Position numbers and translations under genes: made by a program. From Cetobacterium somerae ATCC BAA-474 (GTDB taxonomy: Bacteria > Fusobacteriota > Fusobacteriia > Fusobacteriales > Fusobacteriaceae), in contig NZ_KI518055.1 of the NCBI RefSeq assembly GCF_000479045.1, positions 1-64,000 of the forward strand: a stretch of DNA of 64,000 bases, written 5' to 3'. Under the pieces are notes generated by a model, which saw nothing but the letters and a program-made list of their open reading frames with translations, ran no database searches and was not told where the DNA came from. Shown here piece after piece: positions 32,995-52,500 of this stretch (position 1 is the stretch's first letter; the number at the start of each line of letters is the position of its first letter).

Positions 32995-33125
32995 AACTTC
33001 CTTTCTTTTTAAAAGTTAATTTCTTAATAGATTTTATCATAATAAAGATATTTTTTATATAAATAATATTCAATTTTATTAAAAATCATAGTAAAATATA
33101 ATAAGCATAAAAAATGGAGGAAAAA

Positions 33126-34704: not shown

Positions 34705-35271
34705 TTATCTTAAAGTAATTGTATTATCTTCTAAAGATTCAATAATAGCAAGGGATTCAAGGTGGATTCCTTGCTCTTTTAATATAGTCCCACCTGGTTG
34801 AAATCCTTTTTCAATAACAATTCCAACACCTTCTAGAGAAGCTCCAGCTTGATCAATTATATTTTTAAGTCCAATAATAGCATTTCCCATAGCTAAAAAA
34901 TCATCAACAACAAGAATACGATCTTCAGATGATAAAAACTCTTTAGAAACAGTTATATTATAGTCTGTTTTCTTTGTAAAAGAATGAACATTAGCGTTGT
35001 AAGCATCTCCCATAGTAGAAGGTTTCTTTTTCTTAGCAAAAACCATAGGAACTTTGAAAGCATAAGCAGCAGCTATACCAATAGCAATCCCAGAAGCTTC
35101 TATTGTAAGAATTTTATTTATATTTTTTCCTTCAAAACGTTTTTTTAATTCTTCTCCAATCTCTATCATTAAAACAGGATCAATTTGATGGTTGATAAAG
35201 CTATCTACTTTTAAAATAGAGCTATCAGTAACTGACCCGTATTTTTCAATATATTCTTTTAATAATTTCAT
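34705..35271 (-). CDS. xpt: Xanthine phosphoribosyltransferase
   Basis: This 188-residue purine-salvage enzyme converts xanthine and PRPP to XMP. Visible are MKLLKEYIEKYGSV at the start, the PRPP-binding loop ILVVDDFLAMGNAI (about 118-131) and the Xpt-type MVFAKKKKPSTM (about 75-86), matching the family length of about 190. It overlaps yqeC-mocA by 4 bases and is the last gene of the operon led by the purine riboswitch, a switch class that controls xpt in other bacteria. Xanthine can therefore be salvaged here or oxidised by the neighbouring dehydrogenase. Confidence 0.93.
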   Translation of the reverse strand: MKLLKEYIEKYGSVTDSSILKVDSFINHQIDPVLMIEIGEELKKRFEGKNINKILTIEASGIAIGIAAAYAFKVPMVFAKKKKPSTMGDAYNANVHSFTKKTDYNITVSKEFLSSEDRILVVDDFLAMGNAIIGLKNIIDQAGASLEGVGIVIEKGFQPGGTILKEQGIHLESLAIIESLEDNTITLR

Positions 35272-36545: not shown

Positions 36546-36572
36546 AAAAATCTCCTCCCACTTTGAATAGTT

Positions 36573-38825
36573 TTAGATATCTAAAATTCCCATTAAAACT
36601 TTTTCAGATGTTACAGGTAAATTTCTAACTCTAACTTTAGTTGCTTTATATACAGCATCTACAATAGCAGGTGCAGGAGTATTTACAACAACTTCACCAA
36701 CAGATTTAGCTCCAAAAGGTCCTGTTTTTTCATAAGAGTTTGAAAATTCAACTCTTATATTTTTACAATCAAGTCTAGAAGGAATTTTATATTGCATTAA
36801 AGAGTCGGTCATAACTCTTCCCTTTTTATCATACTTAATATCTTCAAAAAGAGCAAGTCCTATTCCTTGAGCAGCTCCACCTTCAACTTGAACTTGAACT
36901 AAGTTTGGGTTGATAGGAGTTCCACAATCTACAACAGAAAGGTAGTCAGTAACTTCAACTTCTCCTGTTAAAGTATCTACTTCGACCTCAGCAAATCCTG
37001 CAATAAATGGTGGCGGAGAAGTTTCTCCTCCCCAAGTTCCAGTTGTAGTAATTTGATTCATTCCTTCAAAAGAGATAGAACGTTGAGCAAACTCTTCTAA
37101 AGAGATAATTTTGTCAGCTATTTTTAGCTCAGTTCCAAGATAATCAATATCACCAATTTCAACATTGAACATTTTAGATGCACCTTTTAAAATTTCCTCT
37201 TTCATATTATTTGCAGCAATAATTACAGCATTTCCAGTAACATAAGTACCACTAGATGCATATGCTCCAGGATCATATGGAGATAAATCAGTATCAGCTG
37301 AATGAATAGAGATTCTATCCATAGGAACTTCTAAAACTTCGGCAGCCATTTGAGTAAGAACCGTATCACATCCTTGTCCCATATCAGTAACTCCAACCAT
37401 AAGATTAAAATCACCTCTATCTCCAAGCTTTATTGTTGCAGCAGCAGTATCGATACCACCAATTCCAGATCCTTGCATTGTAACAGCCATTCCAGCAGCT
37501 CTAACTTTATTAGGAGCTACTTCTCTAGGAATTGATTTTTCTGCCCAATTAAATTTTTCTTTACCAATTTCAATACATTTTTTAATATCACCACTTGTAA
37601 TATACTTTCCTTCACCTGGTTCAACAAGATTTTTCATTCTAACTTCAGTAGGGTCAAGTTTTAGATGATGAGCTAATTCATTAATAATAGATTCTACAGC
37701 AAAAGTTCCTTGAGTAGCTCCGTATCCTCTAAAAGCACCAGCATTCATAGTGTTAGAATAAACGATATTAGCATTAAATCTCATAGGTACAGTATCGTAA
37801 AGAGGAAAAGTTTTGTATGAAACAAGAGAAGTAACTGTAGGGGCGTGCTCACCGTAAGCACCAGCATTTGATAAAACATTGATATCAATAGCTTTGATAT
37901 TTCCATTTGTATCTGCTCCTATTTTAACATCAAGTTTCATTCCATGTCTTGTAGTTGTGCAAGTATGTGTTTCTTTTCTGTTGTATACTATTTTAGATGG
38001 TTTTCCTGTTTTTAAAGTAACAAAAGCTGAATAAATTTCGCAAACAGCTGTTTGCTTACCACCAAAACCACCACCTATTCTAGGTTTAATAACTCTTATT
38101 TTACTACTAGGCATCTCTAAAGCTCTAGCTAAGTGTCTTCTAACATGAAATGGAATTTGTGTTGAACTTACTGTTGTCAATCTACCATTAACATCAAAGT
38201 AACTATAAGATCTATAAGTCTCCATCATAGCATGCATTTGCGGTTGAGTATAGTATGTTCTTTCAAGAATAATATCACTATTTTCAAATCCTTCATCAAC
38301 ACCAGGTTTTTCAGCATAAGCTTTAGAGGCTATATTTCTCTCTCTTTCGTACCCAATTTCAAAATTAGTATGAACTTCTTCTGGGTGAATAATAATATGA
38401 GAATCAATAGATTTTTCAAAGTCTAAAATCGGTTCTAAAACTTCATATTGAACTTTGATTAGTTTCATAGCTTTATCAGCAGCTCTTTCATCTTCAGCAG
38501 CTATAATAGCTACAGGATCTCCAACGTACCTAACATATTCATCAAGAATTCTTCTATCATATGGAGATGGTTCAGGGAAACTTTGTCCAGCTAAGGTAAA
38601 TCTAGTTTTAGGAGTATCATTATGTGTAAAAATAGCTTCAACACCAGGAACCTTTAAAGCTATTGATGTATCAATAGCTTTAATTTTAGCAAAAGGATGA
38701 GGTGATCTTAATAATTTTATAGTTAAAACATTATTATTTAAAATTAAATCTTCAGTATAAGCAGGATTTCCTGTAACAACTCCCATACCATCAACTTTTT
38801 TAACTGATGTATTAACAATTTTCAT
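36573..38825 (-). CDS. Xanthine dehydrogenase-type molybdenum-binding subunit
   Basis: This 750-residue catalytic subunit of the xanthine oxidase family has the a/b hammerhead domain (about 15-125), PRIGGGFGGKQ for molybdopterin contact (about 235), GAFRGYGATQG (about 365) and the active-site glutamate in FGAKSVGEVVVN (about 715). It binds the molybdenum cofactor and hydroxylates purines such as xanthine. With YqeC-MocA alongside, a labile selenium ligand on Mo is inferred; no in-frame UGA was seen, so the selenium would be cofactor-borne. It overlaps the 2Fe-2S subunit by 14 bases. Exact purine specificity is uncertain. Confidence 0.9.
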   Translation of the reverse strand: MKIVNTSVKKVDGMGVVTGNPAYTEDLILNNNVLTIKLLRSPHPFAKIKAIDTSIALKVPGVEAIFTHNDTPKTRFTLAGQSFPEPSPYDRRILDEYVRYVGDPVAIIAAEDERAADKAMKLIKVQYEVLEPILDFEKSIDSHIIIHPEEVHTNFEIGYERERNIASKAYAEKPGVDEGFENSDIILERTYYTQPQMHAMMETYRSYSYFDVNGRLTTVSSTQIPFHVRRHLARALEMPSSKIRVIKPRIGGGFGGKQTAVCEIYSAFVTLKTGKPSKIVYNRKETHTCTTTRHGMKLDVKIGADTNGNIKAIDINVLSNAGAYGEHAPTVTSLVSYKTFPLYDTVPMRFNANIVYSNTMNAGAFRGYGATQGTFAVESIINELAHHLKLDPTEVRMKNLVEPGEGKYITSGDIKKCIEIGKEKFNWAEKSIPREVAPNKVRAAGMAVTMQGSGIGGIDTAAATIKLGDRGDFNLMVGVTDMGQGCDTVLTQMAAEVLEVPMDRISIHSADTDLSPYDPGAYASSGTYVTGNAVIIAANNMKEEILKGASKMFNVEIGDIDYLGTELKIADKIISLEEFAQRSISFEGMNQITTTGTWGGETSPPPFIAGFAEVEVDTLTGEVEVTDYLSVVDCGTPINPNLVQVQVEGGAAQGIGLALFEDIKYDKKGRVMTDSLMQYKIPSRLDCKNIRVEFSNSYEKTGPFGAKSVGEVVVNTPAPAIVDAVYKATKVRVRNLPVTSEKVLMGILDI

Positions 38826-39276
38826 TTTTTATCTCCTCCATAAAATTTCTAATTGCTCTAAGTTGAGATACATATCCGCTACATCTACAAAGATTTCCAT
38901 TTAAATAATGCATAATTTCGTCATCAGTAGGGTTTTGTAATTCTTTAATCATTGCAATAACAGTTAATGTGAATCCAGGAGAACAAAAACCACATTGTTC
39001 AGCCCCTTCGCTAGTCATAAAAGAAGCAAATTTTTTAGCTTCTACTGGAAAATGTTCAATTGTAGAAATTTGTTTTCCTTGTGCTCTAGCTGCAAGAGTG
39101 CTACAAGAAAGTGTAGGAGAACCATTTAAAAGAACTGTACATAAACCACAAGCTCCAGTGTCACAACCTCTTTTAACACTTAGGTATCCCTCTTTTCTTA
39201 AAACATCAAGTAGATAATCGTCATCTTTTATAAGAATCTCTTTTTTTCTACCATTTATAGTAGTTGTTAATAACAT
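38812..39276 (-). CDS. Xanthine dehydrogenase-type 2Fe-2S subunit
   Basis: This 154-residue electron-transfer subunit carries two 2Fe-2S clusters. The N-terminal ferredoxin-like domain has CDTGACGLCTVLLNG with a fourth Cys in LSCSTL (about 39-62). The C-terminal helical domain has CGFCSPGF (about 100) and NLCRCSGY (about 134). All eight cluster cysteines are present. It passes electrons from the Mo centre to the FAD subunit. Its ATG overlaps the stop codon of the FAD-subunit gene (TAATG), indicating translational coupling. Confidence 0.95.
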   Translation of the reverse strand: MLLTTTINGRKKEILIKDDDYLLDVLRKEGYLSVKRGCDTGACGLCTVLLNGSPTLSCSTLAARAQGKQISTIEHFPVEAKKFASFMTSEGAEQCGFCSPGFTLTVIAMIKELQNPTDDEIMHYLNGNLCRCSGYVSQLRAIRNFMEEIKNENC

Positions 39277-40070
39277 TAATTTAAAACCTCCTGAATTCCT
39301 TTTCTAAGTAATGCTGCTAGAAGAAGTTCTCTATAAGACTTTGAACCTCTCATATTTGAATCTAAAGGAATTTCATTTCCAATATATTTCATAGCATTGA
39401 TAATTTCATTTTCAATATTTTCACTATGGTTAAAAATATCCATAGTTTTTCTAGCCAATATAGCTTTTCCAGGTCTTGATCCAACAGCAATAGTTATACT
39501 ATTATCAAATTTACAAATAGCTAAATTTATAATAGAATAATCAGTTTTACTTTTTCTTACACATTGAAAAGATGTTTTACAAACTTTTTTAGGTATTAAA
39601 ATCTCTACTAGTATATCTCTTCTAATATCTGATTCATTTAAAAACGACTCTAATGTTAAGATCCCACCATTGAAAAGCTTAACTTTACTATCTAAAGCAA
39701 GTAAAACTGGAATTAAATCAGAGAAACCATACTTACTAAAAACTGTTGCTCCAACAGTTACATTTGTTCTAAATTGTACACCAATAATATCCTTTAAAGC
39801 AGTATTAAAAATTTCTCCAAAATAATCTTTTAAAAGAGAGTTTGTTTCAAGAGATCTAAAAGTAGTCATAGCGCCAATTGAAATAAAATCCTCTTTTTCT
39901 AAAATATAATTTAAATTTAAATTTGATAAATCAATAGCTGTATTCCAAGAGGTATTTCCCATTCTTAAATAAGAAGTTCCACCTAGAATAATATTTTTTT
40001 TATTTTTTAAAAGTTCTGAATAAGCTTCTTCAAGAGAAGAGGCTAGAAAAAATTTTGAAAAAGAAAACAA
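39276..40070 (-). CDS. Xanthine dehydrogenase-type FAD-binding subunit
   Basis: This 264-residue subunit has a FAD_binding_5 domain (ILGGTSYLRMGN near 31, ISIGAMTTFRSLE near 64, and RTNVTVGATVF near 101) and a CO-dehydrogenase flavoprotein C-terminal domain (about 165-264). It accepts electrons from the 2Fe-2S subunit. The gene starts with TTG, supported by GGAGG 7 bases upstream. The order FAD, 2Fe-2S, Mo subunit, all overlapping or tightly spaced, shows a three-gene enzyme. The permease gene is 27 bases upstream. Confidence 0.9.
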   Translation of the reverse strand: MFSFSKFFLASSLEEAYSELLKNKKNIILGGTSYLRMGNTSWNTAIDLSNLNLNYILEKEDFISIGAMTTFRSLETNSLLKDYFGEIFNTALKDIIGVQFRTNVTVGATVFSKYGFSDLIPVLLALDSKVKLFNGGILTLESFLNESDIRRDILVEILIPKKVCKTSFQCVRKSKTDYSIINLAICKFDNSITIAVGSRPGKAILARKTMDIFNHSENIENEIINAMKYIGNEIPLDSNMRGSKSYRELLLAALLRKGIQEVLN

Positions 40071-40097
40071 GTTAAAACCTCCAATTAATCTAATTTA

Positions 40098-41447
40098 TTA
40101 AGCAACTTTTTTGGCTAATTTAGCTTCTTCAGTTACTTTTTCTTCAACTGTTTCATTCTCTGGAGGTAAAATTATATTTAAGAATACAGCAATTGTACCA
40201 GAAACAACAATTCCAGATCCACCAAATATAAGTTTTATACTCTCAGGGAAAACAGTTAGAGCCTCAGGAACATTTCCAAGTCCATATCCAAGTCCTAACG
40301 AAACAGCTAATATAACAGAATTTCTACCTTTTAAAGGTTCTTTAGTAATTAAATTGATACCACTTATTGAAATCATAGCAAAGACCATAACTAAGCTTCC
40401 ACCAATAACACTAGCAGGAATGATTGTGAAAAGAGCACCTATTTTAGGGATAAAAGCTCCAACAACTAGGAACATAGCTCCAGTTGCAACAACGAATCTA
40501 CTCATAATACCAGTCATAGCAATAATACCAGTATTTTGACTAAAAGATGTAGTAGGTAAAACAGAGAATACTGCAGCTAAAGCACTTCCAAGTCCATCAG
40601 CAAGGATTCCACCTGACAGTTCTTTATCAGTTGTTTCTCTACCAGCACCACCCATAGTAACCCCAGACATATCTCCAACAGTTTCAACAGCAGAAACGAT
40701 AAACATTAAAATCATAGCTAAAATAGCATCAAAATGAAACGCAAATCCAAACATTAAAGGTCTTGGTACAGTAAGATAATCAGCTTGAATAAGAGGTTGT
40801 AAATTTACTTTTCCAAATATTAAAGCTACAATAAAACCAACAATTGTTCCAATGAATATAGAACCAGTACTTAAGATACCTTTTGTAAATTGTTTAAAGA
40901 AAACAACAGTAATAAGAACAACCGTTCCAATAAGTAAATTTTCAACAGAACCAAAATCTGGAGCACCAACACCACCAGCAAAACTTTTAATCCCGACAGG
41001 TAAAAGAGAAAGACCGATAGAAAGAACAACAACACCTGTAACAATAGGTGGAAAAAACTTTCTTACCCTTTTTATAATAAGACCTAAAAGTCCTTCAAAA
41101 ATTCCTCCAATTAATGCAGCACCTAATACTCCTTCAAAACCATATCTTGTTCCAATAGAGATAGCAACAGGAACAAAAGCAAAACTAGTTCCAACAACAA
41201 TAGGTAGTTTAGCTCCAATAGGACCAAGAGTATATGCTTGAATTAAAGTATTTAATCCTGCAACAAACATTGAAGCTTGAATAAGAAGCGTTTTTTGCTC
41301 AGATGAAATTCCTAAAACACCAGCAACGATTATGATAGGTGTAATATTACTTACAAACATTGCTAAAATATGTTGTAAACCTAAAGGTAAAGCTGTTTTT
41401 AACTCTGGAACTCCATCTAAGTGATAAGGTGATCTGTTTTTTTTCAT
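40098..41447 (-). CDS. NCS2 family xanthine/uracil (purine) permease
   Basis: This 449-residue permease of the nucleobase-cation symporter 2 family has about twelve to fourteen hydrophobic segments. It carries the conserved GLQHILAMFVSN near residue 25, SAVETVGDMSGVT near 260 with the family's key acidic residue, and SFSQNTGIIAMTGIMSR, whose QNTG suggests a purine rather than uracil transporter. The upstream extension to 41489 is rejected because AGGAGG precedes the ATG at 41447. It is first in the operon with xdh genes, yqeC-mocA and xpt behind the riboswitch, so it probably imports xanthine or related purines. Confidence 0.92.
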   Translation of the reverse strand: MKKNRSPYHLDGVPELKTALPLGLQHILAMFVSNITPIIIVAGVLGISSEQKTLLIQASMFVAGLNTLIQAYTLGPIGAKLPIVVGTSFAFVPVAISIGTRYGFEGVLGAALIGGIFEGLLGLIIKRVRKFFPPIVTGVVVLSIGLSLLPVGIKSFAGGVGAPDFGSVENLLIGTVVLITVVFFKQFTKGILSTGSIFIGTIVGFIVALIFGKVNLQPLIQADYLTVPRPLMFGFAFHFDAILAMILMFIVSAVETVGDMSGVTMGGAGRETTDKELSGGILADGLGSALAAVFSVLPTTSFSQNTGIIAMTGIMSRFVVATGAMFLVVGAFIPKIGALFTIIPASVIGGSLVMVFAMISISGINLITKEPLKGRNSVILAVSLGLGYGLGNVPEALTVFPESIKLIFGGSGIVVSGTIAVFLNIILPPENETVEEKVTEEAKLAKKVA

Positions 41448-41521
41448 TGATAATAATCCTCCTAAAATTCTTTTTTGAATTTTACTCAAATATATATTTG
41501 GGATTAAACTATTGTAGAAAA

Positions 41522-41572
41522 TAAAAAAAGATTATCCTTTTTCATCTTCTACAAGTGAAAAATAGATAATCT
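41522..41572 (-). terminator. Riboswitch-controlled terminator in the permease leader
   Basis: On the minus strand, AGATTATC (41572-41565) pairs with GATAATCT (41536-41529), continued by an inner TTTTTCA/TGAAAAA stem, then a T-run at 41529-41523. It lies between the aptamer and the permease start, as expected for transcriptional attenuation. Confidence 0.85.
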
Positions 41573-41603
41573 AAAAAAACTAGACTAAAAAATCTATTTA
41601 TTT

Positions 41604-41670
41604 CACCCATAGTGGCTAATTTAAGGTTAGCCGTAGAAACTTCCGACCGTATTACGGATATATATGAGTA
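41604..41670 (-). promoter_or_regulatory. Purine riboswitch aptamer, guanine-type
   Basis: Read on the minus strand, P1 pairs ACUCAU (41669-41664) with AUGGGU (41610-41605). The conserved core is AGUUUCUAC followed by P3 (GGCUAA/UUAGCC), loop CCUUAAA and ACUAUGGGU. The base before UAUGGG is C, the position that selects guanine-type ligands (U would select adenine). Loop L2 contains ACGG, whose GG can pair with CC of L3. A terminator follows, so guanine or hypoxanthine should repress the operon. L3 differs from the usual CCGUAAA by one base and P2 is short. Confidence 0.88.
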
Positions 41671-41682
41671 ATTCTTTAATTT

Positions 41683-41703
41683 CCTTTGAATTTACTTCAA
41701 AGG
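41683..41703 (-). promoter_or_regulatory. Hairpin in the leader upstream of the aptamer
   Basis: A perfect 8-bp stem pairs 41683-41690 with 41696-41703 around 5 bases. It lies in the transcribed leader about 13 bases before the aptamer. No T-run follows, and its role is unknown. Confidence 0.45.
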
Positions 41704-41797
41704 TATTACATACTATACTTAAAACTTGCTCTTAAAAATAAACTAGTAAATGAATTAATCAAATTTTAGTGAATTTAAGAACGTTTACTTAGGAAAA

Positions 41798-41826
41798 ATG
41801 ATACCATAATTTAGTTAACTTTTCAA
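41798..41826 (-). promoter_or_regulatory. Promoter of the riboswitch-purine operon
   Basis: On the minus strand TTGAAA (41826-41821) and TATCAT (41803-41798) are 17 bases apart, with TATGG before the -10. The transcript would have a leader of about 345 bases containing the hairpin, aptamer and terminator. Between this promoter and the one at 41910 on the other strand I see only AT-rich DNA. Confidence 0.65.
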
Positions 41827-41909
41827 TATTTTTTTACTAAGTCGACAAAGGCAAAGTATAATTATCTAAAACGAAAATAATGATTAACAAATTATTTTAT
41901 ATAAAAAGT

Positions 41910-41938
41910 TTGACAAACGAATTATTTTGTTATAAACT
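41910..41938 (+). promoter_or_regulatory. Promoter of the candidate small RNA
   Basis: TTGACA at 41910-41915 is followed by TATAAA at 41931-41936 (15-base spacer) or TAAACT at 41933-41938 (17 bases). A second similar AT-rich motif lies just upstream at about 41884-41903. Confidence 0.55.
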
Positions 41939-41940
41939 GT

Positions 41941-42016
41941 TAAAGTAAATGCTGTTATTTACGCCAACCAAAAAATTAGTTAAAAATTGAAGACCCTTCC
42001 CAAGGTCTTCTTTTTT
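41941..42016 (+). ncRNA. Candidate small RNA, about 75-80 nt
   Basis: A promoter-like TTGACA element, a GTAAAT/ATTTAC hairpin (41945-41950 with 41956-41961), an AC-rich single-stranded stretch (AACCAAAAAA) and a strong terminator (GAAGACC 41989-41995 with GGTCTTC 42004-42010, then a T-run) make a self-contained transcription unit with no plausible ORF. It ends before the promoter of the next gene. The family is not recognised. A trans-acting small RNA is the simplest reading; a short attenuated leader is the alternative. Confidence 0.5.
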
Positions 42017-42041
42017 ATATTGATTTATTTTATTGTTTGTT

Positions 42042-42070
42042 TTGACAATTATATATTTTAAGAATATACT
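42042..42070 (+). promoter_or_regulatory. Consensus promoter of the aldo/keto reductase gene
   Basis: TTGACA at 42042-42047 and TATACT at 42065-42070 with a 17-base spacer, 34 bases before the chosen start codon. Confidence 0.85.
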
Positions 42071-42104
42071 AAGTATAACCAAAACTAATATAAGGGGGCT
42101 TTTT

Positions 42105-43004
42105 ATGAACTATACACAGTTAAGTGAAAAATTAAAGATGTCAAAAATAGCATTAGGATTTTGGCGTTTAAATGATTGGGGAATGTCTAAAGAAGAGTTA
42201 TCAGAATATTTAGAAAAAGCAATTGATTTAGGTGTTACAACATTTGATCATGCAGATATTTATGGACGTTATACTTGTGAAAAAATTTTTGGAGAGGTTT
42301 TAGCTCTAAAACCAGAGTTAAGAGCAAAAATGCAATTAGTAAGCAAAGTTGGAATAAAACTAGTATCAGAGAATATGCCTGAAAATACATATCATTGTTA
42401 TGATACAAGCTATGAACATATAGTTAAAAGTGTAGAAAAATCCTTAAAAAATTTAAATACAGATTATTTAGATTTAGTATTGATTCATAGACCTGATATG
42501 TATATGGATGCTGATGAAACAGCGAGAGCTTTAACTGATTTAAGAAAGGCTGGGAAAGTTTTAGAATGGGGAGTTTCTAATTTTTTACCATCAGATTTTA
42601 ATCTTTTACAAAGTAGATTGGATTTCAAACTTGTTACTAATCAAATAGAGTTATCACCATTAAAAACACAACATTTTTATGATGGAACAATAAACTTAAT
42701 GCAGGAAAAAAGAGTTCCTATAATGGTTTGGTCTCCCTTAGCAGGTGGAGAAATCTTTATTTCTGGGGATGAAAATGCAGTAGAGTTAAGAAAAGTTCTA
42801 GAGAGATTATCTAAAAAGTATAATTGTAAGTCTGATACGATAATCTATGCTTGGCATTTATCTCATCCAGCAAATTTAATACCAATTTGTGGAAGTGGAA
42901 AGATAGAAAGATTAGAGTCTGCTGTGAAAGCGTGTAATATAAAATTGACAAGAGAAGAGTGGTTTGAAATATTAGTAAATGGAATGGGAAATGATATTCC
43001 ATAA
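42105..43004 (+). CDS. Aldo/keto reductase, YdhF-like
   Basis: This 299-residue NADPH-dependent oxidoreductase has an (alpha/beta)8 fold with the catalytic tetrad visible: Asp and Tyr in DHADIYGRYTCEKIFGE (about 48-64), Lys in LVSKVGIK (about 79), and His in LDLVLIHRPDM (about 127). NWGVSNFLP-like EWGVSNFLPSDF and the C-terminal IPICGSGKIERLESA support the YdhF subgroup. A longer reading from 42033 runs through the promoter, so the ATG at 42105 with AAGGGGG upstream is used. Physiological substrate unknown. The gene stands alone between a promoter and a terminator. Confidence 0.9.
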   Translation: MNYTQLSEKLKMSKIALGFWRLNDWGMSKEELSEYLEKAIDLGVTTFDHADIYGRYTCEKIFGEVLALKPELRAKMQLVSKVGIKLVSENMPENTYHCYDTSYEHIVKSVEKSLKNLNTDYLDLVLIHRPDMYMDADETARALTDLRKAGKVLEWGVSNFLPSDFNLLQSRLDFKLVTNQIELSPLKTQHFYDGTINLMQEKRVPIMVWSPLAGGEIFISGDENAVELRKVLERLSKKYNCKSDTIIYAWHLSHPANLIPICGSGKIERLESAVKACNIKLTREEWFEILVNGMGNDIP

Positions 43005-43021
43005 AATGATAGAAATAAAAA

Positions 43022-43050
43022 AGCCTCACTATTTAGTGAGGCTGAACTTT
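43022..43050. terminator. Terminator between the reductase gene and tRNA-Sec
   Basis: A perfect 9-bp stem pairs 43022-43030 with 43035-43043, flanked by A-rich and T-rich sequence. It can serve both the plus-strand reductase gene and the minus-strand selC. Confidence 0.8.
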
Positions 43051-43056
43051 TAAAAT

Positions 43057-43150
43057 TGGCGGAAGCGTATAGGAATCGAACCTACCAGCGATTTAACTCG
43101 CCAAGACAGTTTTGAAGACTGCTGAGTACACCAGTAACTCATCCGCTTCC
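43057..43150 (-). tRNA. selC: tRNA-Sec (anticodon UCA)
   Basis: This 94-nt RNA reads UGA as selenocysteine. On the minus strand it begins GGAAGCGG and ends CGCUUCC-G-CCA with encoded CCA. The anticodon arm is GCAGU-CUUCAAA-ACUGU, with UCA in the loop. A long variable arm pairs UUGGCGA with UCGCUGG, and the T-arm has UUCGAUU flanked by 5 bp. Length and long variable arm fit tRNA-Sec, not a suppressor. The position expected to be the eighth acceptor pair is G-A. It lies 28 bases after the DUF3343 gene and may be co-transcribed with it. Confidence 0.95.
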
Positions 43151-43178
43151 AATTTCATATTTATTATATCATAAATAT

Positions 43179-43454
43179 TTAAAAATTAAAAGTAGAAAAG
43201 TTCTTTTTAAAACCATTTTTTTCACAAAGATAGAAATTGTATATATTTTTATCTATATTATTTTCAATTAAAAGTTCTAATATTTTATGTGCATCTTCAA
43301 TATTTGCTTTTAAAGAAAGACCACAGCTAGCTTTTAACTCACCAGGTAGTGGTATGATTCGAACATCTATTCCACTATCAACTAAGAATTTTTCTACCTT
43401 CATAACTAAATGAGTTGAATCGATTGTTATAATTAAAAAATTTTCTGAGTTCAT
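43179..43454 (-). CDS. DUF3343 family putative Se/S carrier-like protein
   Basis: This 91-residue protein matches the DUF3343 pattern: N-terminal strand FLIITIDSTHLVMKVEKFL, then GIDVRIIPLPGELKASCGLSLKA with one conserved cysteine (about residue 43). The family is annotated as putative Se/S carrier-like, and members occur beside YedF and selenium genes. The single Cys could carry a persulfide or selenide. It overlaps yedF by one base (TAATG) and precedes selC by 28 bases. The function is inferred and has not been established for the family. Confidence 0.8.
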   Translation of the reverse strand: MNSENFLIITIDSTHLVMKVEKFLVDSGIDVRIIPLPGELKASCGLSLKANIEDAHKILELLIENNIDKNIYNFYLCEKNGFKKNFSTFNF

Positions 43455-44041
43455 TATGGTCTAATCACCTTATTTGCTTTCATTTGTTTTTCTATTATAT
43501 TGTACATATTTGTGATGCTCCCGACAGCAATATTGTTTTCTAAATGGTAGAAATTAAGACAAGCTCCACAAGATAGAATTTCAACTCCTCTTTCCTCAAG
43601 AATTCTTAAGTCTTTTATAGTAGTCTCATTAGAAGCTGTTAAAAAAACACCTTTATTATAGAAAAGAATAGCTTTTGGCAGAGATTCCATTTCAGTAAGA
43701 GTATATATAAAACCTTTCATTAAAGTTTCACCAAGAGCAGTTTCACCATCACCCATTTTATCAGAAGCAATAACTATAATAGTGTTATTTTCATCATTAG
43801 AAGTACTAGAATTTGATAAAGCTTCATTAATTGTTTTATTTATTTGAATAAAAAATATTCCATTTTCTTCTCTAGTAGTAAATGAAAACCCCATCTCTTT
43901 AGAAAACTTTTCAATATTTTCCTTAGAAATTTTGTTATCTATAGAAACTTCAATTGAACCTTCTGTTATTTTTTTTAAAGCATTTTTTGTCATAATAACT
44001 GGTATAGGACAAGTCTGTCCAATAGCATTAACTTTTATCAT
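43454..44041 (-). CDS. yedF: YedF, selenium metabolism protein
   Basis: This 195-residue protein combines a TusA-like domain (1-70), with the sulfur/selenium carrier motif GQTCPIPVIMT (Cys at about residue 10), and a DsrE-like domain (about 78-190) with a second cysteine pair in ILSCGACLNFY (about 160). This two-domain form is known from genomes that use selenium and may deliver selenium to SelD or to molybdenum hydroxylases. A longer reading to 44320 passes through the promoter region; the ATG at 44041 with AAGGAG upstream fits. It forms a unit with DUF3343 and selC. Confidence 0.88.
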   Translation of the reverse strand: MIKVNAIGQTCPIPVIMTKNALKKITEGSIEVSIDNKISKENIEKFSKEMGFSFTTREENGIFFIQINKTINEALSNSSTSNDENNTIIVIASDKMGDGETALGETLMKGFIYTLTEMESLPKAILFYNKGVFLTASNETTIKDLRILEERGVEILSCGACLNFYHLENNIAVGSITNMYNIIEKQMKANKVIRP

Positions 44042-44207
44042 TATTCCACACTCCTTGAAAATTATACTTTTTTTAATTATACAATATTTATACAAAAAAT
44101 TATACTTTAAAATTGATATAATATAGACAATAAAAAAATTGATTTTTAATGTAAAAGGTGTTATTATAAAAATTGTTTTAAATATAATACAGTACGAGGA
44201 GTTGAGA

Positions 44208-45632
44208 ATGAAAAAGAAGTATCTATCTGTGTCATCACTAGTAATGATGATATTCTTGGGAGTATTTGGATTTGGAAATATTGCCAATAATTTTAAAGAA
44301 GTAGGAATGTCATCCGCCACAATGTTGGTAATAGGAATATTATTTTATTTCTTACCACTTTGTTTAATAATGGCAGAATTTGGAGCGTATGCTCAAGATA
44401 GAACGAGCGGAATATATTCATGGATAGAGATAGGATTAGGAAAAAAAATGGCCTATTTTGCAATTTGGTCATATTTTATAGCAAATATATTTTATTTACC
44501 AACATTGGCAACAAGAGTGCCAACATACTTTAGTTTTGGACTATTTGGAGATGCGAATATATCAAATATACAAACAGCTACTTTATCTTTAGTAGCATTG
44601 GTTATATCATTAATTATTGGTGTGAAGTATCAAAAAGCTATTGGAGCTCTTTCAAAGCCTATAGGTTATATTTCTTTATTTACAGTTTTAATATTTTTAG
44701 TAGCTGGAATATACCTTCATTTAACAGGTCAAGGAGCTACAAACTTAACAACTGAAATGTTTATAATAAAAACTACATCTAAATCTGATTTAGCTAGATC
44801 TTTAGGAACGTTTTCATGGATATTATTTGCATTTGGAGGAGGAGAGGTAGTAGGACCATATGTAAATCAAGTAGAAAATCCAGAGAAAAACTTTGTAAAA
44901 GGATTACTTGTAGCCTCAATGTTAATAGGAATACTTTATGTTTTAGGAATTGTTTCAGTTTCAGCATTTGGAACGCAAGAGGATTTTTCAAAAATATCTT
45001 TAATAAATGCAGTTTTAGCAGGTTTTAAATTTATGGGAGATAAGATAGGATTAGGAATTTGGTTTGTTAAATTAATGGGAATAGCTTATTCATTAATAAC
45101 GTTAGTTGCTCTTATTCTTTGGGGAAGCTCTCTGGCTGCTGGAGTATTCAGTGAAGCACCAAAAGGAACTTTTCCAGATTGGTTAACAAAGAAGTCTGAT
45201 AAAAATGGAATTTTAAGAAATGCCTTAATATTCCAAACAATATTAGCATTTTTATTCATAGCTCTTACAACTTTTGGTGGAGAAGCAGCAGGAGAGCTTT
45301 ACTATAGAGTATATGATATGACAACGATGGCTTTAATTGTGCCGTATTTTTGTTTAGGAATAAGTTATATATTCTTTAGAAAAAGAGGTTATGTATCACC
45401 GTTTCAAATATCAAAAGGGAACTTAATACCTATTTTAGCAGGAGTATCAGTTTCAGCAATGACATTTATAGCTTTTATTTTTGCAGGATATGACTTTACA
45501 GTACCAGTAGTGAAGCAATTAGATAAAATGAAGCTATATTATGGTGGTCTATTAATGTTTATGTTAATAGGTTTAGTTATTAAATTTTTAAGTGGAATAA
45601 ATCATAAATCTAAAGAAAATAAGAAAAAATAG
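44208..45632 (+). CDS. APC family amino acid permease, YjeM-like
   Basis: This 474-residue transporter has about twelve to fourteen hydrophobic segments and a glycine-rich first helix (VFGFGNIANNFKEVG). AEFGAYAQDRTSGIYSWIE (about 60-78) and FGGGEVVGPYVNQVENPEKNF (about 208, split here for reading) fit the glutamate:GABA antiporter-type YjeM group. Substrate is unknown. The start at 44208 with GAGGAG upstream is preferred to 44139, which lies in the promoter region; TATAAT at 44183-44188 may be its -10. It is divergent from yedF, within the selenium region, but a selenium-related role is only speculative. Confidence 0.85.
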   Translation: MKKKYLSVSSLVMMIFLGVFGFGNIANNFKEVGMSSATMLVIGILFYFLPLCLIMAEFGAYAQDRTSGIYSWIEIGLGKKMAYFAIWSYFIANIFYLPTLATRVPTYFSFGLFGDANISNIQTATLSLVALVISLIIGVKYQKAIGALSKPIGYISLFTVLIFLVAGIYLHLTGQGATNLTTEMFIIKTTSKSDLARSLGTFSWILFAFGGGEVVGPYVNQVENPEKNFVKGLLVASMLIGILYVLGIVSVSAFGTQEDFSKISLINAVLAGFKFMGDKIGLGIWFVKLMGIAYSLITLVALILWGSSLAAGVFSEAPKGTFPDWLTKKSDKNGILRNALIFQTILAFLFIALTTFGGEAAGELYYRVYDMTTMALIVPYFCLGISYIFFRKRGYVSPFQISKGNLIPILAGVSVSAMTFIAFIFAGYDFTVPVVKQLDKMKLYYGGLLMFMLIGLVIKFLSGINHKSKENKKK

Positions 45633-45640
45633 GTTAAATA

Positions 45641-45676
45641 AAAATGGAAGAACTTGAGTTCTTCCATTTTTGTTAT
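45641..45676. terminator. Bidirectional terminator
   Basis: A perfect 13-bp stem pairs 45641-45653 with 45658-45670 around TTGA, with T-rich tails on both strands, serving the permease and the opposing SRPBCC gene. Confidence 0.88.
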
Positions 45677-46140
45677 TTTGTTTTATTAAATTCAGTTTCA
45701 GCAACAACTTTTAATCTAGTTAGTTGATCTTCTAGAATTCTTTTATTAAAAACATTGAAAAGTTTATGTAATGAAGTTCCTTTTAATGTCCAAGCTGTTA
45801 GTATTAAATGAGTTTTAGTTGGATTAACCTCTTCAAAATCATATTCAAGTTTAAAGTCTACCCATTTATCGCCTACTTCAATTTGGTACATTTTCCCTTC
45901 TTCATAAGCTAAAACTTTTCCACAATACTCCTCTTTAAAACCATACATTTTTATTTTTTCACAGAAAGTAGAACCAGTAACTTCTGGTGCATCTGTATGC
46001 TTTTCGTCTTCTAAACCAGTAATCCAAAGAGCATGCTTACTGTAATCAGATATAAGTTTAAATACAAAATCTTTTGGGGCTTCAATATCAATACCTTGAA
46101 CAAAAAATGGTACTTTTTCGTTTAATTCTTTTAGTTCCAT
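45673..46140 (-). CDS. SRPBCC (START-like) domain protein
   Basis: This 155-residue protein has the SRPBCC helix-grip pattern: GIDIEAPKDFVFKLISDYSKHALWI (about 15-39, shown in the translation), a series of beta strands (EEYCGKVLAYEEGKMYQIEV), and a long C-terminal amphipathic helix (LFNVFNKRILEDQLTRLKVVAE). Such proteins bind hydrophobic ligands or act in aromatase/cyclase and stress functions; the ligand here is unknown. The ATG at 46140, with GGGAGTG upstream, is favoured over the in-frame ATG at 46155, which overlaps that ribosome site. Confidence 0.75.
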   Translation of the reverse strand: MELKELNEKVPFFVQGIDIEAPKDFVFKLISDYSKHALWITGLEDEKHTDAPEVTGSTFCEKIKMYGFKEEYCGKVLAYEEGKMYQIEVGDKWVDFKLEYDFEEVNPTKTHLILTAWTLKGTSLHKLFNVFNKRILEDQLTRLKVVAETEFNKTK

Positions 46141-46206
46141 ACAAATCACTCCCATTTAATAGAATATATTATATTATTAAGTGATTTTATGAAATTTCCT
46201 TCAAGA

Positions 46207-48048
46207 TTAAATATTATTTTTTATTCTATAACTATCAATTTTTTTAGTAACTTTTTTTTCATCAAAATTTTCAAGGTATACAAGAGCCATTTTACGGCTA
46301 GTTTTGAGAAGATCTCTAAACTCTGCTAGTGTAATTTGAGTATTTAATATAAGGAAGTTATCTAATCTATTTAAAGCTTCTTGATAAAAACCTTTTAAAA
46401 GAAAATATTCATTTAATTTTATAATAAGCCCTTCTCTAACTAAATATTGAAAAACTTCTTTAAAATTTAGATTTTTATGAAAATAATCATTTAACTTTTC
46501 AAAACTTAATCCATTAAACTCCTGTTTTTTTAATAGAATTAAAATTTCATCTTTTATTTTTTTTTCATCTTTTGAAAGCTTAACTTTAAATGTTTTAAGT
46601 GAAACAAAGTTATCTTTTTCTTGAAACTCATCTTGAAACTCATTTATTAAGTTGATTCCTTTAAAAAATAGGTTGTTAATAGTTGCTAAAGGTACCCCTT
46701 TTCTAAGAGGGTTTTTTAAATGAAAATCATTTAAATATAAATTAATTTCATTTTTAAGATTTTTAAGATTTTCTTTATGAATAATAGCTTTTATTGTTTT
46801 AAAAACAAAAATATTATGATCAAAACTATTTTCATTTAAAGAGAGGTTAAACTCTTTATTCAAATCGTTTATATAAGTAAAACTTCCCTTATTTAAAAGA
46901 TACTCTGAAACATTAAGTTGTTTATTTAAAAGATAGTTTAATTTTTTTAAATAAATAGAATTATTTTTTTTAGTAGGAACTCCAAAAGGTGTTAGAATTC
47001 GAGCTCCTCCAAGTAAAGCGGATGTACTAAGAGTTCTTAATATACCAATATCGTCAAAATCGACAGGAATTTCTTTGTCCATTATAAGTTGGAAAAAGGT
47101 TGATTCCTCTTCAAAATCTTGAAGATATTTAATCTTTCCATAATACTCTCCAGTACCAATATTCAATCTTATTTTAGTATTGTTTTTAGGAATAGTTCCT
47201 TCTGATAATCTATTGAATACTACATCTATTATTTTGCTATTTGTAATAGTTTTACTGTTAGTTAAAAGGTTACCTCTTTCAAGCTCCTTTGCTGTTACTC
47301 CAGTTATATTTAAGGCACATCTTTGTTGAGATGAAATGTATTCTAAATCTTTTCCATGATTTTGAATTCCCTTTATTTTAATATTAATTTTTTGAGGATA
47401 AAGAGTTAAAGTATCCCCTTTATTTATATTACCAATAGTTGTACCACTAACAATAGTTCCAATTCCTTTAGGAGAATAGATTTTATCAATATCTAGTCTA
47501 AAAATATTTTGAATATTATTAGATGAAGAGAAATCAAAATTTTCAATCTCTTTTAAAATTAAATTATATAGGTTTTCATAGGTTGAACTATCTTTTAGGC
47601 TAACTTCAACAATAGGAAAATCTTTAAAAAACTCCTCTTTAAACTCTTGAGAAATTTGAGCTTTAACTTCGTCAACTCTTTCAGAAGTAACTAGATCTCT
47701 TTTTGATAAAACAATAATTCCATTTTTTATTCCAAGAAGTTTTAAAATCTCTTTATGTTCTATTGTTTGAGGCATAATACCATCATCACAAGCTATTAAA
47801 AAAAGCACAAAGTTAATACCTTTAGCACCAGCAACCATATTTTTTATAAATTTTTCGTGCCCAGGAACATCAATAATACTGATAATATCACCAGAAGGAA
47901 TATTTAAAGGGGCAAAACCAAGATCAATGGTCATCCCCCTTTCTTTTTCCTCTTTCATAGTATCGGTATTTATATTTGTCAGCATTTTGACTAAAGTTGT
48001 TTTTCCGTGATCTATATGACCAGCTGTACCAATTACTATATTCTTCAT
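46207..48048 (-). CDS. selB: Selenocysteine-specific elongation factor SelB
   Basis: This 613-residue GTPase delivers Sec-tRNA to ribosomes paused at UGA by binding the SECIS hairpin. The EF-Tu-like part has G1 GTAGHIDHGKTTL (about 6-18), G3 DVPGHEKF (about 60), and SKRD for G4 (about 112). The C-terminal half (about 350-613) corresponds to winged-helix domains, the last of which bind SECIS RNA. It starts 2 bases after the selA stop, so selA and selB are translationally coupled. No other gene of the Sec pathway separates them. Confidence 0.95.
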   Translation of the reverse strand: MKNIVIGTAGHIDHGKTTLVKMLTNINTDTMKEEKERGMTIDLGFAPLNIPSGDIISIIDVPGHEKFIKNMVAGAKGINFVLFLIACDDGIMPQTIEHKEILKLLGIKNGIIVLSKRDLVTSERVDEVKAQISQEFKEEFFKDFPIVEVSLKDSSTYENLYNLILKEIENFDFSSSNNIQNIFRLDIDKIYSPKGIGTIVSGTTIGNINKGDTLTLYPQKINIKIKGIQNHGKDLEYISSQQRCALNITGVTAKELERGNLLTNSKTITNSKIIDVVFNRLSEGTIPKNNTKIRLNIGTGEYYGKIKYLQDFEEESTFFQLIMDKEIPVDFDDIGILRTLSTSALLGGARILTPFGVPTKKNNSIYLKKLNYLLNKQLNVSEYLLNKGSFTYINDLNKEFNLSLNENSFDHNIFVFKTIKAIIHKENLKNLKNEINLYLNDFHLKNPLRKGVPLATINNLFFKGINLINEFQDEFQEKDNFVSLKTFKVKLSKDEKKIKDEILILLKKQEFNGLSFEKLNDYFHKNLNFKEVFQYLVREGLIIKLNEYFLLKGFYQEALNRLDNFLILNTQITLAEFRDLLKTSRKMALVYLENFDEKKVTKKIDSYRIKNNI

Positions 48049-48050
48049 AT

Positions 48051-49436
48051 CTATACTCTCTCTAAGAACTTTTTAAAGTTTTTTATGATTATAGAGTACT
48101 CATCACTGTGAATTGTTTTTAAATCAATAAAAAATTGATTGTTTTGAACTCTTCCAACAATAGGTGTATCCTCTTTTAAAAAAGCTGTTTCAACTTGTTT
48201 TCCATCTAAAGAAGTGATAGCGACACCATAACTATCGATAGTTGCATCAGGCATAGAGCCTCCGCCAATTATAGCTTTTGTTTCAATGATTTCACTATCG
48301 ATTTCAATATCTTTTAAAAGATTCTTTAAAATCTCTGCTCTTTTAAAAACTTCGCTTATAGGTTCTAAAATTCTATTTAGAGTAGGGTTTTTTTCGATTG
48401 CAACCTTTTCATCAACATATTGTTTAAAAGTAAATTCTAAAGCACTAATAGTCATTTTACAAACTCTGAAAGCTCTTAAGAATTGATTTTTTTTCAATTT
48501 TGAAATTAACTCTCTCTTTCCAATAATCACTCCACATTGTGGTCCACCTAAAAGTTTATCCCCACTAAAAGTAATTAAATCAATACCAGAGTTTAAAGAT
48601 TCAAAAATTGTAGGTTCCTTTTTTTGTCCATATTTAGAAAAATCTATTAATACACCACTTCCTAAGTCTTCCATTGAAATTATTCTATGTTCTTTTGCTA
48701 ATTCAGCAATCTCTTTATTAGACACAGATTTTGTAAAACCAGAGATATGATAGTTAGATGTATGAACTTTTAAAAGCATTGATGTATTTTCATTTATTGC
48801 TTTTTGATAGTCAGCTAGATGAGTTCTATTAGTAGTTCCAACTTCAACAAGTTTAGCACTTGAGAGTTCCATAATATCTGGAATTCTAAATGAGCCACCA
48901 ACTTCAACAAGCTCTCCTCTAGATATAATAACCTCTGTATTTTTACTGAATTCATTTAAACAAAGCATAACAGCAGCAGCGTTATTATTAACTACTAATG
49001 CAGCTTCAGCGCCAGTAACTTTTGCGATAAGATCTTCTACATGAGAGTATCTACTTCCTCTTTCACCTGTTTTTAAATCAAATTCAAGATTGCTATATCC
49101 GCAAAGTGAATTTTGCAGATGCTCAATTAATTCTTTTGAAAAAAGAGCTCTTCCTAAGTTTGTATGTAGGATAGTTCCTGTACCATTTATAACTCTTTTA
49201 AAATTAAACTCTAAATTTTTAGTTAGAGATTTTGTAATTTCATTTTCGATATCTTCAATAGAGTATTGAGTGATAACTTCCTCAAGAATTCCTTTTCTAA
49301 AAAAGTTAATTCCTTCGTTAACAGCGTCGTAAACCTCTTTATAAGGTTTATCTTTAAAAAACTCCTTTTCATTCAGTAGATCGATAACTTTATCTACTTT
49401 AGGAAGATTTCTTAAAAGAGTTTGTTTATTAGTCAT
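48051..49436 (-). CDS. selA: L-seryl-tRNA(Sec) selenium transferase
   Basis: This 461-residue PLP enzyme converts Ser-tRNA(Sec) to Sec-tRNA(Sec) using selenophosphate. Visible are the N-terminal LRNLPKVDKVIDLL, INGTGTILHTNLGRALFS (about 83-100), SRYSHVEDLI, and the PLP-binding lysine in FSGDKLLGGPQCG (about residue 290). Length matches bacterial decameric SelA. It follows selD by 10 bases and precedes selB by 2, giving the order selD-selA-selB. AAGGGGA precedes the ATG. Confidence 0.95.
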   Translation of the reverse strand: MTNKQTLLRNLPKVDKVIDLLNEKEFFKDKPYKEVYDAVNEGINFFRKGILEEVITQYSIEDIENEITKSLTKNLEFNFKRVINGTGTILHTNLGRALFSKELIEHLQNSLCGYSNLEFDLKTGERGSRYSHVEDLIAKVTGAEAALVVNNNAAAVMLCLNEFSKNTEVIISRGELVEVGGSFRIPDIMELSSAKLVEVGTTNRTHLADYQKAINENTSMLLKVHTSNYHISGFTKSVSNKEIAELAKEHRIISMEDLGSGVLIDFSKYGQKKEPTIFESLNSGIDLITFSGDKLLGGPQCGVIIGKRELISKLKKNQFLRAFRVCKMTISALEFTFKQYVDEKVAIEKNPTLNRILEPISEVFKRAEILKNLLKDIEIDSEIIETKAIIGGGSMPDATIDSYGVAITSLDGKQVETAFLKEDTPIVGRVQNNQFFIDLKTIHSDEYSIIIKNFKKFLERV

Positions 49437-49446
49437 AATATTCCCC

Positions 49447-50472
49447 TTATCTAACTACAATATATTTTCCATTATATTTATCTACAGTTCCAATTAAAGA
49501 TGACTTTATTTGAAGAGTATTTAGTTTTTCCATAACCTCTGATGCATATTTTGAAGAAACAGAAAATAGTAATCCACCAGATGTTTGTGGATCTAGCATA
49601 ATCTCTTGTAACCAAAATGGAACTGCTGAAATATCAACTTTATCATTTAAATAGTTTCTATTTTTTTGTCCCATAGAGTTTATATAAAACTCTTTAGCGA
49701 ACTCTTTAGCAATGTCTAAATATGGAATAAGTTCTTGTTCTAAAACGAAAGTTTTTTCAGAAGCTACTGCCATTTCATATGCGTGCCCTAAAAATCCGAA
49801 TCCTGTAATATCTGTACAAGCAGTTATTGGATAGTCTCTTATAATTTCAGCAGAGTATTTATTTAAAGTTGTCATTATTTCAATCCACTCAGTTTTTACT
49901 TCATCAGAGAGAGTTTCAACTTTAGAAGCTGTAGAAATAATACCTGTTCCAAGAGGTTTTGTTATGATTAAAACATCTCCTTCTTGAGAACCGTAATTTT
50001 TAAAAACTTTATCAGGATGTACAAGTCCAGTTACAGAAAGACCATATTTAATCTCAGGATCATGAATAGAGTGTCCACCACTTAGAACAGCTCCAGATTC
50101 AGCAATTTTTTCAGCTCCGCCTCTTAAAATTTCTCCTAAAATTTCGATATTTTCCTTTTCAGGAAAACAAACTATATTCATAGCTGTTCTAGGTTCTCCT
50201 CCCATTGCATAAACATCACTTAAAGAGTTAGCCGCAGCTATTTGTCCAAATATATATGGATCATCAATCATAGGTGTAAAAAAGTCTAAAGTTTGGATTA
50301 AAGCTATATCATCTGTTAATTTATATATAGCAGCATCATCAGATTTTTCAAAACCAACAATTAAATTTTTATCTTCCACACTTGGAAGATTTTTTAATAA
50401 ACTTGAAAGAACCTCCGGTCCTATTTTGCTTGCTCAACCACCAATTGAGCATCTATCTAATAAAAGTTTCAT
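49447..50472 (-). CDS. selD: Selenide, water dikinase SelD, itself a selenoprotein with in-frame UGA
   Basis: SelD makes selenophosphate from selenide and ATP. A conventional reading starts at an internal GTG (50379), which would remove the catalytic loop. Reading upstream in the same frame through UGA at 50434-50436 gives a normal start: ATG at 50472 behind AAGGAGG, encoding MKLLLDRCSIGGUASKIGPE (U is residue 13). The Sec sits where Cys or Sec is known to be catalytic, followed by the essential Lys16 and the acidic KSDD (43-46). The full product is 341 residues. A SECIS-like hairpin follows the UGA. SelD thus depends on the pathway it feeds, together with selA and selB in the same operon. 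Confidence 0.93.
50404..50436 (-). promoter_or_regulatory. SECIS-like hairpin of selD
   Basis: On the minus strand, 17 bases after the UGA, AGGACC pairs with GGUUCU (6 bp, one G-U) around the loop GGA. UGA-to-loop distance and a G at the loop start fit the bacterial SECIS model read by SelB. It lies within the coding sequence. Confidence 0.7.
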
Positions 50473-50508
50473 TTAGCGCCTCCTTATTCATAAAAAATGA
50501 ACCTATAA

Positions 50509-50514
50509 ATTATA
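50509..50514 (-). promoter_or_regulatory. Candidate extended -10 promoter of selD-selA-selB
   Basis: On the minus strand TGGTATAAT (TATAAT at 50514-50509) forms an extended -10 box, with no good -35. It lies 37 bases before the selD start and just after the aroB-gppA stop, so read-through from that gene is also possible. Confidence 0.45.
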
Positions 50515-50520
50515 CCACAA

Positions 50521-52500
50521 TTATATATTTAATACCATACCGCCTTCTAAATTATCAACTGTTGAAACTGTGATGCTATTTTTATTTAAAATATCTAAAA
50601 GAGTTAATAATATTAGATTTCCAGCAATAATAACATCAGCACGGTTAGGTTCTAAACCAATAATTTTTTTACGATCTTCTAAAGTTTTACTTAAAAATAG
50701 ATATAAGTTTTCCTCTAAATCCATTTTTGTTAAAACATAGCCATTTATCTCTTTCTCATCAAACTTAGGAAATTTTTTAACAATAGAAACATTAGTTGTA
50801 ACAGTACCTGCAACTCCTATAATTTTAAAGTTATTACCTTCAAATTTAATTAATTCGTTAAAAAATCCTTTTAAATAGTTACGAGCAGATAAAAGAGTTT
50901 CCTCATTATAGTTTTCATCTGAAAAAAACATCTCTGTTAATTTAACAACTCCAATGGGGAAACTTTTGATATAGTCAATTCCATTGTAATCACCAATGGT
51001 AATTTCACTACTACCGCCTCCTACATCAATAGTTGCTATTTTTTCTCTATAGATATTGCTATTTCCATTAAAACTTAATTTTGCTTCAATCTCTCCAGGA
51101 ATAACTAAAGTATTTATATCAAATTCATTTTTTATTCCTTGAACAAACATACTACCATTACTAGCTTCTCTTGTAGCAGCAGTGGCAAATGCAATAAGCT
51201 CAGTTACACCCATAGAATCAGCTTTTTCTTTAAATCTTTTAATAATATAGTATGTTTTTTCAATAGATTCTTTCGAAAGAACACCAGTTTGATTAAGGTT
51301 CTTTCCTAATCTAGAAACTTCTAAATCCTTATATAATGGTGTAATAATCTCTATTTTATTATCAGTTTTTTCAATCTCTGCAATAAAAAGTCTACACGAG
51401 TTAGTTCCTATATCTATAACACCTTTTAAAATTCTATTTTTAAAAGAGTGGTTAACTTCAGAGATAACTTCTTTAGAAATTGGCATATTTTCAAGAGTTC
51501 CATTTTTATCAATAATAAATTTAATTTTATCATGGGTATTTTTTTTATCTTTTTTCATAACATTTATTAAAGTTTCTTCCTCTATATATATAGGAGTAGG
51601 ATCAATTTTATAAAGACTGAAAAGTTCTTTGATAGAATTAATGTATTCTTCTGTAGCAAAACCTAAAAATTTAGAGATTTGCATTTCAAAAAGTATACCT
51701 TTAGCTACTCCTTCGCCGTGAGAGATATGTTGATAATCAAAAAGAGTTTCTAAAGCATGGCCATAAGTATGACCTAGATTTAAGAAGGCACGATCACCTT
51801 TCTCAAATTCATCTTTTTCAACAAACTCTTTTTTTATTTTACAAGATTCATAAATCATTTCAATTAAAACTTCAGGTTTTAACTTTAAAATATCTCTATA
51901 TGACTCAATTAAGAAGTTAAAATAACTTTTATCTTTTGCGATGATACTATGCTTAATAACCTCTCCCATACCTGATTTAAATTGGCATAAAGGTAGAGTT
52001 TTTAAAAAATTAATATCTATAATAACTCCAATAGGTTGTTTAAAAGAACCAATTAAGTTTTTTCCAAGAGAGTGATTAATAGCAACCTTACCTCCAATAC
52101 TAGCATCAACTTGAGCTAATAAAGAAGTGGGAACTTGTAAAAAATCAAGACCTCTCATAAAGGTAGAAGCAATGAATCCTCCTAAATCGCAAACAACTCC
52201 ACCACCAACACATATGATTAAAGAGTTTCTAGAAAAATTATTCTCTATTAAAAATGAAAAAATTTCCATAGAAGTTTCCATATTCTTATATATTTCACCG
52301 TCTTCAATTTTATAGACATAGGTTTTTTTCTTTGGAAGATTACTTAAAATCTTTTGACCATAAAGTTCACCTATAGTTTTATTTGTAAGTAGTAGTATTT
52401 TGTCATAATTTTCAGTAAAATCATTAAGTCTATCTATTGTATTTTGTCCAATAAAAATGTCGTATGAATTTATAGAAGTCTTCATAACTAAATTTTTCAT
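50521..52500 (-). CDS. Fusion of 3-dehydroquinate synthase (AroB) and Ppx/GppA-type phosphatase
   Basis: This 659-residue protein has two enzyme domains. Residues about 1-345 are AroB, the second shikimate-pathway enzyme, with NAD-binding CVGGGVVCDLGGFIAS (about 96), DASIGGKVAINHS, and the metal ligands Glu in GMGEVIKHSI and His in NLGHTYGHALE. Residues about 357-659 are an exopolyphosphatase/pppGpp phosphatase-like actin-fold domain with GVIDIGTNSCRLFIAE (about 358) and TIDVGGGSSEITIG (about 493). Each half appears full length. How the two activities relate is unclear. GGAGA precedes the ATG. Confidence 0.9.
   Translation of the reverse strand: MKNLVMKTSINSYDIFIGQNTIDRLNDFTENYDKILLLTNKTIGELYGQKILSNLPKKKTYVYKIEDGEIYKNMETSMEIFSFLIENNFSRNSLIICVGGGVVCDLGGFIASTFMRGLDFLQVPTSLLAQVDASIGGKVAINHSLGKNLIGSFKQPIGVIIDINFLKTLPLCQFKSGMGEVIKHSIIAKDKSYFNFLIESYRDILKLKPEVLIEMIYESCKIKKEFVEKDEFEKGDRAFLNLGHTYGHALETLFDYQHISHGEGVAKGILFEMQISKFLGFATEEYINSIKELFSLYKIDPTPIYIEEETLINVMKKDKKNTHDKIKFIIDKNGTLENMPISKEVISEVNHSFKNRILKGVIDIGTNSCRLFIAEIEKTDNKIEIITPLYKDLEVSRLGKNLNQTGVLSKESIEKTYYIIKRFKEKADSMGVTELIAFATAATREASNGSMFVQGIKNEFDINTLVIPGEIEAKLSFNGNSNIYREKIATIDVGGGSSEITIGDYNGIDYIKSFPIGVVKLTEMFFSDENYNEETLLSARNYLKGFFNELIKFEGNNFKIIGVAGTVTTNVSIVKKFPKFDEKEINGYVLTKMDLEENLYLFLSKTLEDRKKIIGLEPNRADVIIAGNLILLTLLDILNKNSITVSTVDNLEGGMVLNI

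Follow-up and report, generated by a model that had tools for sequence, protein, structure and literature searches.

The window analysed here, a stretch of 64,000 nucleotides, is contig C2 of a 3.07 Mb Cetobacterium-like genome. It contains a selenium region of ~17 kb (33114-50472) that holds selU, yqeC-mocA, a molybdenum hydroxylase, the gene for tRNA-Sec, a PF11823 carrier, yedF, selB, selA and selD. The features on which the following sections draw are:

50473-50485, minus strand: Shine-Dalgarno sequence AAGGAGG 5' of the selD ATG; aaGGAGGcgctaa precedes ATG 50472
49447-50472, minus strand: selD, selenide, water dikinase, 341 residues with predicted selenocysteine codon 13 (TIGR00476, 382 bits)
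50434-50436, minus strand: TGA of Sec13 in the motif GGUASK (UxxK); the aligned column is Sec or Cys only in 97 loci
50408-50422, minus strand: SECIS-like hairpin AGGACC-GGA-GGUUCU, 17 nt from UGA to apical loop
48051-49436, minus strand: selA, Sec synthase, directly 3' of selD (TIGR00474, 572 bits)
46207-48048, minus strand: selB, Sec-specific elongation factor (TIGR00475, 296 bits; cut-off 242)
43454-44227, minus strand: yedF-type sulfurtransferase-like selenium protein (TIGR03527, 223 bits); true start probably ~44035
43179-43454, minus strand: putative Se/S carrier protein (PF11823)
43057-43150, minus strand: selC, tRNA-Sec with anticodon TCA (ARAGORN; RF01852, 68.6 bits)
35268-36545, minus strand: YqeC fused to a MocA-like cytidylyltransferase (MocA/MobA-like), a selenium-cofactor trait (TIGR03172, 129 bits)
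33114-34166, plus strand: selU/mnmH, tRNA 2-selenouridine synthase, a second selenophosphate user (NF008750, 358 bits; TIGR03167, 327 bits)

The selD frame and its Sec/Cys column

On the minus strand, the selD frame runs for 341 codons from ATG 50472 to a TAA at 49447-49449 and contains exactly one TGA. Under translation table 11 the same gene appears as a 310-residue ORF that starts at GTG 50379, and a standard reading thus misses the first 31 residues. The preliminary description had proposed translation through the UGA from ATG 50472 with a strong ribosome site, and had held that the extra 31 residues restore the N-terminal catalytic loop of SelD. The frame and the AAGGAGG motif confirm the first proposal and alignment confirms the second, and an AGGAGG-like motif precedes the start of selD in most relatives. 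A frame with one TGA is present in 48 Fusobacteriota genomes at identities down to 55%, and the reading is therefore not a matter of chance.

The full-length reading scores 382 bits against the TIGR00476 equivalog model, for which the cut-off is 125, and is thereby assigned to SelD. Across 97 selD loci, which include Clostridia, Bacillaceae, Desulfobacteraceae and Chloroflexota and in which some genomes are represented twice, the codon aligned to the TGA is only ever TGA, TGT or TGC, and Lys stands at +3 from this column in all 97. The earlier placement of Sec at the known Cys/Sec site, with Lys three residues on, is thus borne out, and a search of the same loci for relatives with neither Cys nor Sec in the column found none. 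Taking the UxxK definition of Sec-containing SelD (PMC9312934), we find the Sec codon at the column with Lys at +3, together with selA, selB and tRNA-Sec in the same genome.

As an enzyme type, Sec-containing SelD is well known and not novel. Among bacterial selenoproteins it ranks second in frequency, with 383 organisms recorded (PMC5029168), and 19% of prokaryotic SelD proteins hold Sec, always at one position (PMC4561486). The Cetobacterium gene shares with the bacterial Sec-SelD (TIGR00476/COG0709, UxxK) its family, Sec position, Lys and linkage to the Sec operon; nothing essential differs, and the host lineage and the SECIS-like sequence are local variants. No paper was found in the literature on Cetobacterium selenoproteins. 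E. coli SelD (PDB 3U0O) aligns over residues 11-330, with Cys17 and Lys20 matching Sec13 and Lys16. Having Cys in place of Sec, the E. coli enzyme is independent of Sec decoding. Native Aquifex aeolicus SelD presumably carries Sec at the site aligned to Sec13. The crystallised chain of this protein, which is the best-scoring solved relative (PDB 2YYE, 2ZOD, 2ZAU), has Cys at that site, and Aquifex SelD is more distant in sequence from the Cetobacterium protein.

Directly upstream of selD, at 50521-52500, lies a 3-dehydroquinate synthase (AroB) fused to a Ppx/GppA phosphatase domain; the full fusion also occurs in the Cetobacterium loci L032-L037 and in F. mortiferum (L038). A promoter scan at selD returned no significant site. 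Between the fusion gene and selD there is an extended -10-like motif (TGGTATAAT, 50505-50520), whose TATAAT, judged by eye, is kept in Cetobacterium, and this suggests that selD may have its own promoter. After selB, at 45673-46155, a small START/Polyketide_cyc2-like protein is encoded, with a match in one other locus (L035).

A SECIS-like hairpin under synonymous constraint

The region that follows the TGA was compared with a bacterial SECIS model (PMC13188914) that asks for an apical loop of 3-9 nt, an upper stem of 4-16 bp, a G in the first two loop positions, a UGA-loop spacing of 16-37 nt and a minimum free energy of -7.5 kcal/mol or lower. The hairpin of selD has a 3-nt loop on a 6-bp stem, a loop sequence GGA (GGA or AGA in other Fusobacteriaceae) and a spacing of 17 nt. 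Loop, stem, G and spacing of the element sought by the preliminary description therefore agree with the model, but the folding energy does not (-6.7 against -7.5 kcal/mol), and we call the hairpin SECIS-like because the energy cut-off is missed. Among the Sec alleles of Fusobacteriota this energy ranges from about -4 to -14 kcal/mol. No SECIS family match was obtained here with Rfam.

Folded by itself, the sequence reaches -6.7 kcal/mol in either 41 or 51 nt with z of -0.4 to -0.9, a stability that is not significant, and the case for a SECIS element thus rests on comparison. Among 30 distinct Sec alleles, pairing in the helix amounts to 95%, and it drops to 42-73% once the partners are slid. 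A compensating change from A-U to G-C occurs in eight Sec-allele sequences, at one base pair only. Codon usage is also peculiar at the hairpin. Its Pro codon is CCG in 31 of 48 genomes and CCA in the other 17, as against 53% CCT and 4% CCG elsewhere in selD; its Glu codon is GAG in 36 of 36, compared with 26% in the remainder of the gene; and its Val/Ala codon ends in A or G in none of 48 genomes. These codon choices show a synonymous constraint that tracks RNA pairing rather than the protein. The Cys alleles of G041-G044 retain a weaker stem but have lost the hairpin loop GAG.

Selenocysteine decoding and rival readings of the TGA

The gene order selD-selA-selB is kept in Cetobacterium and F. 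mortiferum. A true SelD is encoded in 57 of 98 Fusobacteriota genomes, 48 of them with exactly one in-frame TGA and nine with none. Below its cut-off the search for tRNA-Sec is noisy, since every genome has further tRNAs that match weakly, and we therefore took selB as the marker of Sec decoding. It is present in all 48 genomes with TGA-selD and in three of the nine with Cys-selD (absent from six), a co-occurrence for which Fisher's test gives p ~2e-6 with the relatedness of the genomes ignored. The window's genome also encodes an FdhA with TGA at the canonical Sec site, CARLUHSS. As a separate observation, G053 has two tRNA-Sec genes, at C7:46259 and 75537.

It might be argued that a suppressor or near-cognate tRNA decodes the UGA as Trp or Cys rather than Sec. 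Nothing specific favors this, apart from the thought that a small basal readthrough could aid bootstrapping when SelD is absent, and it is made highly improbable by the retention of selB in 48 of 48 TGA-SelD genomes and by the six SelD genomes without selB, each of which has Cys instead of TGA. Somewhat less probable still is that the TGA is a true stop and that a shorter SelD, devoid of the N-terminal loop, starts at GTG 50379. The 310-residue ORF does exist under table 11, and the Aquifex SelD chain 2ZAU (311 residues) begins past the loop, which shows that a truncated form is able to fold. Against this, the shorter protein would be without the catalytic Sec/Cys and Lys that 97 of 97 homologues keep; GTG 50379 lacks a Shine-Dalgarno sequence, and the GTG codon is not conserved, occurring in only 28 of the 48 TGA-selD genomes; and conservation among the selD genes of relatives extends to the upstream ATG, its Shine-Dalgarno sequence and the codons that precede the TGA. 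We also looked for evidence that translation starts only at GTG 50379, which would have counted against the longer reading, and found none. The least probable reading is that the TGA arose through a sequencing error, or that it is what remains of a Cys codon in a pseudogene; the division of the assembly into 172 contigs could be invoked in its favor. Independent genomes refute it: 48 of them, some in a single contig, share the TGA with an intact frame on both sides. Synonymous constraint on the SECIS-like hairpin also speaks against it.

Thus, we suggest that selD almost certainly encodes a standard selenocysteine-type selenophosphate synthetase whose UGA would be decoded as Sec13 by the SelB route. 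Translation would begin at ATG 50472, and the UGA at 50434-50436 would be read by SelB and Sec-tRNA-Sec with the aid of the downstream hairpin. The predicted insertion of Sec at codon 13 would place Sec13 and Lys16 in a mobile Se-binding loop, giving an enzyme that probably produces selenophosphate. This product would feed SelA (Sec), SelU (selenouridine) and the YqeB/YqeC cofactor route, making SelD both a supplier of the Sec pathway and its customer.

Selenium use and the Sec-to-Cys switch in Fusobacteriota

Judged by homology, the genome encodes all three known selenium-use traits. A molybdenum hydroxylase (36573-40070) adjoins the YqeC-MocA fusion, and YqeB is encoded outside the window in the same genome. 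A search of the genome for a second or Cys-type SelD found none, leaving one SelD, of the Sec type; a SelD-like match on contig C18 was rejected as a back-up, being of HypE/ThiL type and below the selD cut-off. With one Sec-type SelD and no Cys copy found, every encoded selenium trait depends on the reading of a single UGA, and the positive feedback of a Sec-dependent SelD on selenium supply, put forward in the preliminary description, is plausible. Elsewhere, the selenouridine synthase is found as two adjacent pieces (G003:C1:244653-245554, G086:C71:7926-8815), which could reflect decay, a frameshift or a natural split. There is also a weak HesB-like ORF with TGA in GSKUCPVIF at L100 (G009:C2:520798-521007) and in G011:C79, likely a further Cetobacterium selenoprotein.

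The Cys-SelD of G041-G044, about 67-70% identical to the Cetobacterium protein and with TGT at the site, nests inside the Sec-SelD of Fusobacteriaceae in a maximum-likelihood tree, beside the Sec gene of G053 (support 93/94), and this nested position implies a change from Sec to Cys. Where it could be read, the Cys selD adjoins yedF and not selA-selB. G041-G043 retain Sec decoding, with a TGA-containing FdhA, and G044 lacks selB. The g25 genomes, likewise without selB, have a Cys-SelD of another and more distant kind.

Among the 48 Sec-SelD genomes there are 27 in which we found no TGA-form FdhA, GrdA, HesB or peroxiredoxin, nor a full-length GrdB, a count that is an upper bound on SelD-only genomes, as few of ~110 selenoprotein families were covered and peroxiredoxin was sought among the matches listed. 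All 27 carry SelU or YqeB, and 26 carry SelU, which in G003 is split into two pieces. The window's own genome lies outside this group, as it also has the TGA-containing FdhA. According to an earlier proposal (PMC1794560), it is SelD that keeps Sec decoding in place in organisms without FdhA, and this proposal fits Fusobacteriota. We tentatively speculate that in much of Fusobacteriaceae, as represented by these 27 genomes, the Sec machinery may serve SelD alone, with selenophosphate passing to selenouridine and the molybdenum-hydroxylase cofactor; such a self-sustaining loop, with no Cys-SelD as back-up, would have to be bootstrapped from inherited SelD or from basal readthrough, and we regard it as possible but rather unlikely.

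The analysis fixes the start and the active site of selD, a gene that is shortened by a table-11 reading. With a nested Sec-to-Cys switch, a member of the Cys clade (G044) that lacks selB, and genomes in which SelD may be the only selenoprotein, Fusobacteriota provide a clean natural experiment on why SelD keeps Sec.
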